Shown: piece by piece, positions 21,124-62,380 of the stretch
Layout: every line of letters begins with the position of its first letter
Numbering within the stretch: position 1 is the stretch's first letter
Assembly: GCA_010015805.1 (NCBI GenBank)
Contig: ML978122.1
Span: 2,328,453 to 2,392,452, forward strand
Reading direction: 5' to 3'
DNA from: Rhizodiscina lignyota
Lineage: Eukaryota; Ascomycota; Dothideomycetes; Aulographales; Rhizodiscinaceae
DNA: 64,000 nt
The notes under the pieces: generated by a model
Databases searched by the model: none
Told to the model about the DNA's origin: nothing
What the model saw: only the letters and a program-made list of their open reading frames with translations
Program-made: the position numbers and the translations under genes

Positions 21124-22942
21124 ATGGCTAACCAACTAGCCATCATGATCTACATCTGGTGCTTGAGCGGAACATTTGCTAGCTTTATCGTGTGGCGCAT
21201 CTGGTTGCTCTTCAGTGACCAAGCCCGCAACTGGGTTTTGGCGGCTGTGAGGAAGAGATTGGTCTACAGTTTGGTCGCACGAAGACTTAAGGGATCATCC
21301 AGTCTCAGTTACGCCCACCTGACTTTTCTGCTCTTATATGTAGCTGCCAACCTAATAGCTCTTTTGATCGGCCTCCCATCAAGGAAAGAGCTTAGCCAGA
21401 GGTCGGCATCTTTGTTTGTCATCAATTCTATTCCTCTGTACCTAGGAGGAAGGACGAGCATTTTTGTCGATCGTGTACTCCAGATACCGCTGAACACTTA
21501 CTATCTGGCACATCGGTGGCTCGGTCGAATCTGTGCGTCACTGGCTGCAATTCATGTAGCCGTCTCCCTTTTCCGGACAAATGGAAAACTCGATGGTATC
21601 GACTCAGCGGTATGGATTCCGTAGCTAGGTGAAAGGAGTGATATTGACAGCTTGCAGTTGATTTCTGTCCTCGGGTCCTTAGCATTGCTCTCATTACTAC
21701 CGGTGCGTCGCCGACTCTATGAGGTATTTCGGGTGAGCCATTCGTGGCTTGCAATCGCACTCATTGGCCTGATATGGGTCCACATCGGCATCCGCCAGCG
21801 CCTCCCTGCAATTTGTCTTGGGATTGCGTCAGGGATCTGGATTTTCCAACAGCTCTTTCGTATTTTCTCCATAGCAAAGCGCAACAGAGGCCTGCGCGCT
21901 AAGAATACGACAGACGTTCAATACATTGAGGAATCGAGCGGCCTGGCGCAGACCATGAGGCTTAAGATCAATTTGAGGCGCCCTTGGAAGATCCAGCCTG
22001 GCCAATATGTGTATCTCACTATACCTGCAGTCGGAAGGCTGGGCGCAGGGTACTTGCAGGCCCATCCATATTTCGTAGCTTGGGCGACTGAGGGCGCCAC
22101 CAATTCGATAACGCTGCTGATCGAAAGCCGCCGGGGTTTCAGTCGAGATCTTCTCCTGAGTCGACAGACAGCACTCAGTGCCCTTATCGAAGGCCCGTAC
22201 GGGACAGGACTCCAGTTGGATGAATATGACACTGTTTTGCTCATGGCCAATGGCATTGGCATCTGTCCGCTCTTATTAGCAGCGAAATGTCTTGTTGAGG
22301 CTCATTTAAACAAGACAGCTCGAGTACGACGCCTTACTCTAGTATGGCTCTTGGACAGTCCGGGTGAGGGTGAACACAGTTTGTTGGCGAACGCACGAGC
22401 TAATCCTCTACGCAGGCCAGGAGGCGTTGGCGATAGATTTCCTTCACCAGCTCCTTGAGCAGGACGCGGTCCGTCGCATTCTGACCGTGCACCTATACGT
22501 CGACAATCCAGCCCAGGGACGCCCCGTTGCCAAAGGACCAATTCGACTGTTCAGGGTGAATCAGACACTCGATATGTCATGGATGATTGAGACTGAGTGG
22601 AGAGCTGAGGCTGGAAACATGGCGATTGCAGGTGAGACCTCCGAATCTTGCGTAGGCATGCCGGCTGACCGAAATTTAGCATGTGGTCCACCGGACTTCG
22701 AATATGCCATTAGACAGGCTCTGAGGCGAACCGCATCCGACATCAGGCTCGTGAATCTGGGGTTCGAGCCCGACGCACATCGAGCATCAGCTAAGCTAGC
22801 AGAACGCTTTGTGGTGAGGGCAGCCGGTGCGCAACCCGGTCGTAAATCAGAGAAGGAGACTGAAGCAGTCGGTCGTCGCAATGGTGAGATTGAGATAATC
22901 GAGCGTCGAAATGAGAGGGAACTTGTTATTACAAACGTTTAG
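21124..22942 (+). CDS. Ferric/cupric reductase transmembrane protein (FRE family)
   Basis: Exons 21124-21609, 21658-22363 and 22416-22942 (introns GTATGG...TTGCAG and GTGAGG...CGCAG, phases consistent), 572 aa. It has several membrane helices with two heme-ligating pairs of H-x13-H spacing: His130/His144 (HRWLGRICASLAAIH) and His190/His204 (HSWLAIALIGLIWVH). The FAD region has HPYFVAW at about 298 and GPYG; the NADPH region has NGIGICP at about 360 and CGPPDFEYA near the C-terminus. Known role: reduces extracellular Fe(III)/Cu(II) with cytosolic NADPH before uptake. It is shorter than most FREs and has no clear signal peptide. FREs are one of the recurrent accessory families of Starship elements, which fits its place here. 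Confidence 0.9.
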
Positions 22943-23509
22943 AAACAAGGGGTGAATTTCGATTTGAAGGCAGACGTACCTGCTATTAGTGCCCCGCTGT
23001 TTATTTCCCTTTTATTATACAGTCCAATCAATTCATAAAAATATTTCAAAACCTCGTTTGTCAACGTAAGGCATGCGCGCACATCGAGAGCTACAGAAAA
23101 GTTATTTATCATTATAGCTAGGAAATTGGCTCCTCTTTTCGAAGACGTTGGACCTGCACGCGCTTCTAAGAAGGACCTGGCGATCACCAGTCTTTTTACG
23201 CATTTCGAGACAGTTGTGAGCGAAGGGGATGACGGGCGCTGGGTTGATAGCGGCGCAGCAGTTTGGTGACTTCGCGTTGAAAATCAAGGGGCTCCCAGAA
23301 GGAGCGAAGACTGAAGCCTATAAAAACTTGGAAGAGACGGCAAAGCAAATGGGCCGTGCTTTGGTCGAAGTCGATAATAAGTGACGCGGTGGTGGTGGCA
23401 GAGGCAGAGCAAGGAGGTACCTGAGGCTTCTCATGGATCAAGGCTCGATTAGGGGCAGGGGAGGAGCTGAAGCGGTTAAGAAATGCTTTCAAAATACCAT
23501 CGCTACTAT
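22943..23509. other. Intergenic with a decayed coding relic
   Basis: The only notable content is the frame-disrupted relic described separately at 23125-23384. Confidence 0.4.
23125..23384 (+). pseudogene. Frame-disrupted coding relic
   Basis: Two plus-strand segments in different frames read like one protein. The first (KLAPLFEDVGPARASKKDLA, ITSLFTHFETVVSEGDDGRW) runs out of frame. The second continues as QQFGDFALKIKGLPEGAKTE, AYKNLEETAKQMGRALVEVD before a stop. Joining them needs a one-base shift near 23235. The style resembles helical N-terminal regions of fungal NLR-like proteins, but that is only an impression. Confidence 0.3.
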
Positions 23510-24059
23510 CTATACAAGGTATCCCAGAAATTCCTTTTCGTGTTCCTGTAATACCCTCACTGACGGTAACCTTCTCACTATTCGGCCGTGCCTTCCTAGC
23601 GTGCGTTCTGTAATCCTGCAGGAATTCCCCTCTGAATACACGGAGAATTGGTCGGCTCTTCCACCTTCGTCACTCGTGAAGCGATCTTTGAGTTTATTGG
23701 GGTGTAGCAACGCTGAAAGTGTCATCCATACATTTAGCGAACAGTTCGAAGAATTCCCAGATGTTCAGGAATTGGACCTGGGCTTCGTATTTGTAGGACT
23801 GAAGGTCTTCGATGACGTGGTCGAGGGCTTGGAGCCGGGAGTGAATCTCCGCCACAAACACCAAGGTTTCGAGTGACGTTGGGCTGCAGCATTCGCCCCC
23901 AGCGTGACTGCGGGTTGACAGCCCTAACAGCGGTGCATGGGTTCCGGATTCGACTGTGCGGAGACGACGATGATTATCGCCCTGCCCTGACCGGCGTCTC
24001 CAGTCTCGGCTGTTTCTGGGTCGTCTGGTCGAACGCGTTTGTTTCGATCGGCGAGACAT
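23510..24059 (-). CDS. Orphan two-exon protein
   Basis: Exons 23732-24059 and 23510-23685 (GTATGG...CTCAAAG, phase 1), 167 aa. The N-terminus is very basic (RSKQTRSTRRPRNSRDWRRR), possibly a nuclear signal. It is followed by helices (LETLVFVAEIHSRLQALDHV, EDLQSYKYEAQVQFLNIWEF) and a charged C-terminus. No family recognised. Confidence 0.45.
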
Positions 24060-61052: not shown

Positions 61053-61229
61053 TTTGATTTTCGTCTGGAAGAATTTATCCAAGCTATTATTACGGCTCGA
61101 GGATAACGCATTACTTATCTACTGCAATCTCTCTTTTTCGGATACAGTGGAAAACTTGGATCCAGGAGTTGTTCGTACGCGACTTGGGGCCGGGATCCGT
61201 GTAGTGCTAAAAACTATTGGCGGCTAGAG
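61053..61229. promoter_or_regulatory. Captain upstream region and likely 5' terminus of the element
   Basis: Normal-composition sequence between the captain ATG and the AT-rich block. In characterised Starships the element end lies within a few hundred bases of the captain start, so the terminus and target site should be here. I recognised no definite terminal motif. Confidence 0.4.
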
Positions 61230-62380
61230 AATCTCTAATGAATACGCGCTATGTTTTAATAGACCCGATATTTAGACTTTATTTGCCTTATTTTAGGACT
61301 AATTTAACGAAGACTACTTTTAATACTATAATAGCTATATAAATATACGCTTTCTAGATTAGTATAATAAGTATAGAGTACTTATAGTAGTATTTCTACC
61401 TTATTTAACCTACTAGCTATAGCTACTAGATCTTACCTATTTTTATAGTATTAGGTACTACTATAGTATTAATCTAAATAAGTAGTAAATTAAAATATAA
61501 GGCCTTACCTCTCTAAGCAAGTAGTAGTTCTTTTTACTCTTTTAGCCTACCTAGTAAGTAGTATTTAGTAAGGAAATCATTAAATCTAGTTAGAAATAAG
61601 TAGGGATTTAGCTACTTAATCTAGAGTTAGTTATAGTATAAGTTAAACCTCCCTCCTAGCCTCTATTAAGTAATTTAGTAATCTTAAAGACCTTAGCACT
61701 CTTAGTATCTAAATAGAGGAAGGTAGAAGACCTTCTATATAACTCTATAAATACGCATTCTTAGAAGATCCTTAATATAATCTAGTATCTCGTATTTAAA
61801 GTATATTAACTTAGAAGTAAAAGAGATAGACTAAGACTAGTAGTAGGTATAGAGAAGCTTAAAAGCTATTAAGGCAAGCTATTATTTAACTAAATTCGGG
61901 ATAAATCTAACTATAAAGCTATAATATACTCCCTATTAAAGGTCTAGCTAGTACGAGAGAAGATAGCTTAAAAGGAGATTCAATAATAATAAGAAGATAT
62001 ATATAAACAAGAAGAAAAGAGTCGTAAATAAGCAGCTAAATAAGAGAAGGAACGTTTAGCTTAGGAAAGGCGAGAATAGTTAGCGGCGGCGAGGTTACGA
62101 AAAAGAGAGGAGGTAGCTCAAAAAAAGGTACAACTTTAGAAGGCTTATACATAGAAATAAGCAAACAAACAGCTTTAATCTAAGGCTAAAGCAGCTAATA
62201 AAAAGCTAAGGAATAAGTGTAACAAGAATCAAGAGATTCTAGAAGAGGTTGAAATTTTTAATAAGGAAAATGCTATTCTAGGCACTTAACCCACCCAAAC
62301 ACGATTAGGGCGTAAAACAAAGCCAATAAGGCGTTATCAGTATTAAGTTTCATAGCAAAACTTATAGGCAATAATCTCAT
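61230..62380 (+). mobile_element. RIP-degraded DNA transposon remnant
   Basis: Extremely TA-rich block with CpA/TpG depletion. Near its right end (about 62011-62289) one plus-strand frame still reads like the Lys/Gln-rich tail of a transposase: ERLA-stop-ERRE, LAAARLRKREEVAQKKVQL, SKAKAANKKLRNKCNKNQEI, LEEVEIFNKENAILG. All stops in that frame are TAA or TAG where Gln (CAA/CAG) is expected, which is what RIP does. The composition resembles the C-terminus of pogo/Fot1-type transposases; that family call is an inference. The rest of the gene is too mutated to read. Confidence 0.6.

Follow-up and report, generated by a model that had tools for sequence, protein, structure and literature searches.

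We analysed a 64,000-nucleotide stretch of DNA (the window, C2:2328453-2392452) from Rhizodiscina lignyota (Dothideomycetes, Aulographales), whose 33.4-Mb genome comprises 29 contigs. The results make it very likely, indeed close to certain, that a 75,074-bp Starship was inserted here as one unit into a putative Tc1/mariner-like transposon. The element occupies C2:2314704-2389777 (window -13748 to 61325, 400 N included); negative positions lie to the left of the window on the same contig, C2, and C1 and C13 are other contigs of the same genome. The part inside the window (1 to 61325, minus strand) has its 5' end at 61325, from where the captain is read leftwards into the element, and the 3' end is at window -13748, 13.7 kb beyond the left edge of the window. 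The element is a Starship as defined in the literature (PMC12506042, PMC12153272).

A preliminary description of this DNA had proposed a Starship with a captain and hallmark cargo, extending as one element from its right edge leftwards past 21 kb. This holds, with four hallmark genes present (the patatin gene being borderline), but the proposed extent was too small. Its right edge is at 61325 and not at ~61.1-61.23 kb, and its left edge, which had been placed at 21124, lies ~35 kb further left, outside the window.

Genes were predicted with a gene finder written for this analysis, which was run on the window together with 100 kb to its left and 50 kb to its right. Inside the element this gave 20 gene models in a strict run and 35 of at least 80 residues in a relaxed run. 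Predicted proteins were scanned against Pfam and NCBIfam profiles, each with its own cut-off. The profile searches of the genome score the best candidates only, which here were all those listed (DUF3435, 4 of 4; DUF3723, 3 of 3).

The insert and the transposon that it splits

The DNA to the right of the captain is AT rich and resembles DNA altered by repeat-induced point mutation (RIP). Three longer copies of it were found in the genome, two on C1 and one on C13, along with fragments. DNA left of the window matched the same three places, in stretches adjoining the right-flank matches. Since both flanks match adjoining parts of the same three copies, the two sides are halves of one transposon, which has been cut in two. 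The last base of the left half is window -13749, and the first of the right half is 61326. The halves have the same orientation and flank the 75-kb insert. At the cut, the 7-bp direct repeat CTATAAT is present on both sides, at window -13755 to -13749 (C2:2314697-2314703) on the left and at 61326 to 61332 on the right. The preliminary description had anticipated one precise insertion flanked by a short duplication of the target site, a 5' end near 61.1 kb, and a matching 3' end left of 21 kb; the 5' end at 61325, the duplicated CTATAAT, the three unbroken copies, and the 3' end at window -13748 are what was observed.

When the two flanks were joined, they aligned without gaps across the junction to all three of the copies examined, each of which is unbroken at this point and carries the core once. 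The core reads CTATAAT in the first C1 copy (C1a, C1:1694056-1696099) and in the C13 copy (C13:132037-134254, which has ~170 extra bases elsewhere), and TTATAAT in the second C1 copy (C1b, C1:1016916-1018858), the difference from CTATAAT being a RIP-type change. The count of unbroken copies refers to the three longer copies, with the fragments (at the C1 end and at C2:2601538-2601790) standing outside the junction alignment. The two halves minus one repeat amount to 2,150 bp, compared with 2,153 bp for the whole C1b copy.

The left part of the host transposon spans window -14722 to -13749 (974 bp) and is preceded by TA at -14724 to -14723. The right part spans 61326 to 62508 (plus strand; 1,183 bp), with TA directly after it (62509-62510). 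The split C2 copy and the C1b copy are each bordered by TA on both outer sides, and their ends are inverted; with up to 7 mismatches allowed, the C2 end sequence was not matched in C1a or C13. Flanking TA, terminal inverted repeats, and a length of about 2 kb are features of Tc1/mariner transposons, and from the TA and the size we infer that the split transposon is Tc1/mariner-like. The extra bases of the C13 copy lie at C13:132740-132912 and are perhaps another nested insertion.

The captain and hallmark accessory genes

The captain is a DUF3435 tyrosine recombinase (NA57DRAFT_72239) encoded on the minus strand at 58768 to 61052. Our model has five exons (61052-60886, 60835-60625, 60560-60238, 60165-59834, and 59774-58768) and 679 residues and is 99% identical to the 683-residue NCBI protein. 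The latter scored 288.3 bits against PF11917 (cut-off, 25.8), in agreement with the five-exon DUF3435 gene proposed for the right edge. The captain score had been named beforehand as a possible refuter of a Starship, and the score found is measured here against the profile cut-off rather than against known captains. The gene is read inward from its ATG at 61052, which lies 273 bp inside the element end (61325). DUF3435 was over the cut-off nowhere else in the genome.

Inspection of the captain sequence for known motifs matched R194 with an A at +3, Y335-x2-R338, and a later tyrosine, either Y368 or Y372; K230 is guessed solely from where it stands among the motifs. The corresponding residues of the captain of Sanctuary, a Starship of Bipolaris sorokiniana, are given as R260, A263, K308, Y424, R427, and Y458, and HhpA needs Y381 and Y416 (PMC12506042). 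The spacing between Y335 and the later tyrosine is 33 or 37 residues, depending on which tyrosine is taken; for Sanctuary the value is 34, and for HhpA it is 35. Two protein searches returned the captain alone (1 among 7998 and 1 among 8000 scored candidates); only candidates sharing the most words were scored, so that an isolated position of the captain is not implied. Among solved structures there was no convincing relative.

A second DUF3435 locus, at C2:1464181-1465035, scored 24 bits, below the cut-off. About 11 kb from it, at C2:1476112-1476456, lies a paralogue (68% over 115 residues) of a Zn-cluster factor of the element. No other element protein was matched near this weak DUF3435 locus, and the locus and the paralogue are possibly the remains of a decayed older Starship. 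The Zn-cluster factor of the element itself, at window -11253 to -10321, has a long tail of VEQPNF/VEQSNL-type repeats. When the leftmost 3.7 kb of the element was compared with the genome, the one match was the Zn-cluster factor paralogue (C2:1476212).

Recurrent accessory genes of Starships are DUF3723, FRE (ferric reductase), PLP (patatin-like phospholipase), and NLR (PMC12506042). This set is present in part: DUF3723 and FRE were over their cut-offs, PLP was just below, and NLR gave no match among the proteins scanned, which were a part of the gene models. The DUF3723 protein (30250 to 33545, minus strand; 1064 residues) is NA57DRAFT_72229, to which our model is 100% identical over the full length. 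It scored 307.6 bits against PF12520 (cut-off, 22), and DUF3723 was matched at this locus only in the genome. That the sole DUF3723 match and the sole DUF3435 match over the cut-off share one locus goes beyond chance. Besides itself, a protein search returned three distant matches with 29-32% identity (from Periconia, Cercospora, and Thermoascus); no donor can be named. The ferric reductase (21124 to 22942, plus strand; 513 residues, five exons) contains three FRE domains, which scored 39.3, 37.7, and 23.8 bits against cut-offs of 28, 22, and 22.2, respectively. Both genes had been named in the preliminary description, as had the patatin-like phospholipase, for which the outcome is mixed. In the patatin-like protein (33846 to 36984, plus strand), GGGVRG and GSSAG, which we take to be patatin motifs, are readable in the translation, and the domain scored 25.9 bits, just under the cut-off of 27.7.

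Alternative explanations, target site, and RIP

Several observations weigh against a single inserted Starship. The empty site is paralogous rather than being this very locus as seen in a different strain; C1a and C13 are 93-95% alike and hence not independent; and identity between the unbroken copies and the split one is only 73-74%. With 60, 100, or 200 bp taken from each end, terminal inverted repeats did not reach significance: alignments of the ends as good as those seen occurred in 37, 187, and 127 of 500 shuffles, respectively, and in 16, 55, and 71 of 402 internal windows. The tyrosine spacing of the captain equals neither of the published values exactly (PMC12506042), and its fold is unconfirmed, with a single-sequence structure model reaching a pLDDT (predicted local distance difference test) of 37.6. 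By eye, GTCTTCGTT can be read just inside both element ends, at a distance of 4 bp and 11 bp, respectively.

In a rival explanation, a solo DUF3435 gene lies near unrelated genes, and what split the transposon was a rearrangement of the chromosome or a join made in assembly. In its favour, solo DUF3435 genes outnumber captains (PMC12134995), the element contains 400 N, and its terminal inverted repeats are not significant. Against it stand the single orientation of the halves, the sum of their lengths to that of a whole copy, the duplication of exactly 7 bp, a recombinase gene beginning 273 bp from one breakpoint, and the distance of the N run from the left (~17 kb) and right (57 kb) junctions. 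We regard this explanation as highly improbable. The run itself (window 3399-3798) is either an assembly gap or a masked stretch, and the length of the element depends on it.

A different possibility, which qualifies the insertion of a Starship rather than replacing it, is that the outer ends belong to one Starship and the interior is a composite produced by later or nested insertions. RIP-like 100-bp windows near 13.4 kb and at 38.9-39.5 kb, a 65-nt inverted match between 19.6 kb and 38.5 kb, and another pair of inverted repeats (45.4 kb and 56.1 kb) speak for such an interior. Against it, no nested second captain was seen, there being no other DUF3435 over the cut-off in the genome. A composite interior is unlikely, if worth bearing in mind.

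If a Starship was inserted as one unit, the captain would pair the element ends with the matching 7-bp core in the target and would exchange strands at this core by cutting and rejoining them. The cargo (DUF3723, the ferric reductase, the patatin-like protein, FolC, BCS1, the kinases, the chromodomain protein, and others) would thereby be carried as one piece. The target core CTATAAT lies inside an inverted repeat, ATAGCTATAATAGCTAT, which both C1a and the joined C2 copy contain and which is altered in C1b. Two-armed inverted sites are the kind used by tyrosine recombinases. Chance alone would give each transposon ~1.7 inverted repeats whose arms are at least 7 nt long, and the 17-nt junction repeat is therefore suggestive only. 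A 15-nt form of it occurs at 3 sites in the genome, two of them in the host transposon family, with 0 sites for the backward control. Read on the captain strand, the end of the element beside the core is TATTAAAA, which is near the CTATTAA that the empty target has on that same side. Judged by eye, this likeness would fit a pairing of like sequences.

RIP has left its trace on all copies of the host transposon. CpA plus TpG counts per 150 bp were 0-4 over most of the C2, C1a, and C1b copies and rose towards the outer ends; C13 is richer in these dinucleotides than the other three. The outermost 100 bp of the Starship contains 3 CpA plus TpG on each side, at 29-30% GC. Counts as low as this were found in 8 of 2,979 sampled windows inside the element. 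When CpA plus TpG, GC, and TpA were combined, the only sampled window to match the extremity of the left end was the left end itself, and none (0) was as extreme as the right end. Either RIP spread inward after landing or the ends are naturally AT rich. The RIP-like outermost 100 bp at both ends suggests that the element may be grounded. A tentative and rather doubtful extension of this notion is that, when a Starship targets a palindromic core within a DNA transposon present in many copies, its landing site exposes it to RIP, and that spillover of RIP by ~100 bp into both ends erased the terminal repeats and grounded the element, leaving captain and cargo readable.

Other cargo and comparison with known Starships

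The remaining cargo named in the preliminary description was retrieved in part. The folate ligase corresponds to a folylpolyglutamate synthase/FolC-like gene at 40297 to 41154 (minus strand), which scored 228.6 bits against TIGR01499 (cut-off, 162.65). Its open reading frame spans positions 17-303 of the 400 of FolC, and a C-terminal-like stretch is visible by eye further left in another frame. The BCS1-like ATPase likewise stood up, with a domain match confirmed for the BCS1-type AAA ATPase at 49007 to 50317 (minus strand). Where chromodomain proteins had been listed in the plural, one was found (37097 to 38254, minus strand, 385 residues; domain match at 37100-38272, 36.5 bits against 25.1); a second, outside the window, scored 18.1 bits and is below the cut-off. 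The label JmjC-like was not confirmed for the 915-residue protein at 45777 to 48524 (minus strand), which had no Pfam or NCBIfam match. For the small secreted protein there is a gene model at 38955-39305, which is a low-scoring candidate (score 2).

Two AAA-type genes are carried, the second of which, recognized by eye, lies at 56466 to 58517 (plus strand; 3' exons roughly placed) and includes a DUF7025 part (71.3 bits). This second gene adjoins the captain and, within window 57940-58200, reads GPPGVGKAS at the Walker A-like stretch and LVKEAD; the usual forms are GKT/S in Walker A and LLDEAD. Judging from these residues, it is perhaps an inactive ATPase.

Further genes of the element on the plus strand include one for an 832-residue protein (53159 to 55992), whose last exon gave three TPR matches, of which one exceeded the cut-off, and a small protein kinase-like gene (43969 to 44712; 55.3 bits). 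Another protein kinase-like gene lies at 14106 to 14996 (41 bits), a 794-residue protein at 5965 to 8349 has no Pfam or NCBIfam match, and a DUF7492 protein is encoded at 2208 to 3179 (265.7 bits). The gene at 677 to 2024 encodes a RING-finger protein (39.3 bits), and its exon structure differs between the two gene-model runs. No tRNAs were found in the window, and RNA families gave no match there.

Comparison of window 21.3-41.3 kb with the genome gave one match, inside the element, and comparison of window 1.3-21.3 kb gave nine, all short or weak, of which one lies within the element; in each case one candidate, presumably the query itself, was unscored. The inverted repeats at 45379-45497 and 56024-56159 are 10.5 kb apart and 78-90% alike, and no genome copies of the 45.3-45.5 kb repeat were found beyond the two inside the element. 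Two inverted repeats are perfect: that at 48639-48694 has 28-nt arms and a loop of 0 nt, and that at 53031-53090 has 29-nt arms and a 2-nt loop.

The element resembles Sanctuary in the position of its captain near the 5' edge (273 bp here; in Sanctuary it is the first gene, ~350 bp from the edge), in its short direct repeat (7 bp here and 6 bp there), and in a DUF3435 recombinase with Y-x-x-R followed by a later Y. It differs from Sanctuary in the repeat itself, which is CTATAAT here (ATTATAG on the captain strand) and has the consensus ATWHCT there, in size (75 kb compared with 170-196 kb), and in the source of the empty sites, which came from other isolates for Sanctuary and from transposon copies in one genome here (PMC12506042). 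Starships range from ~20 to 700 kb, with direct repeats of 2-12 bp in Aspergillus fumigatus; at 75,074 bp and 7 bp, the element falls within both ranges and, with its captain at the 5' end, is like the high-confidence A. fumigatus Starships. Like the Janus elements of that species, it carries a CHROMO gene. Unlike A. fumigatus Starships, it showed no target motif match by eye in the part of the motif table compared, and terminal inverted repeats, present in 18 of 20 there, are not significant here (PMC12153272). Some captain families prefer other transposons as targets, and like the Starships of those families the present element is inserted in another transposon (PMC12134995).

The insertion of Starships into other transposons is thus already known (PMC12134995). 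As far as we have seen, the element itself, its exact ends, and the proof of its boundaries from one genome are new. No paper in the literature searched pairs Rhizodiscina or Aulographales with a Starship; an earlier listing of the captain is possible, several Starship surveys lying outside that search.

The present analysis adds a Starship with exact ends from the order Aulographales. Where the target is a repeat, the other copies of that repeat serve as the empty site, and Starship boundaries can be proved without a second strain. The RIP marks on the split transposon may help to date the insertion. If exposure to RIP through the landing site is real and general, the choice of a repeat as target would shorten the time for which Starships stay mobile.

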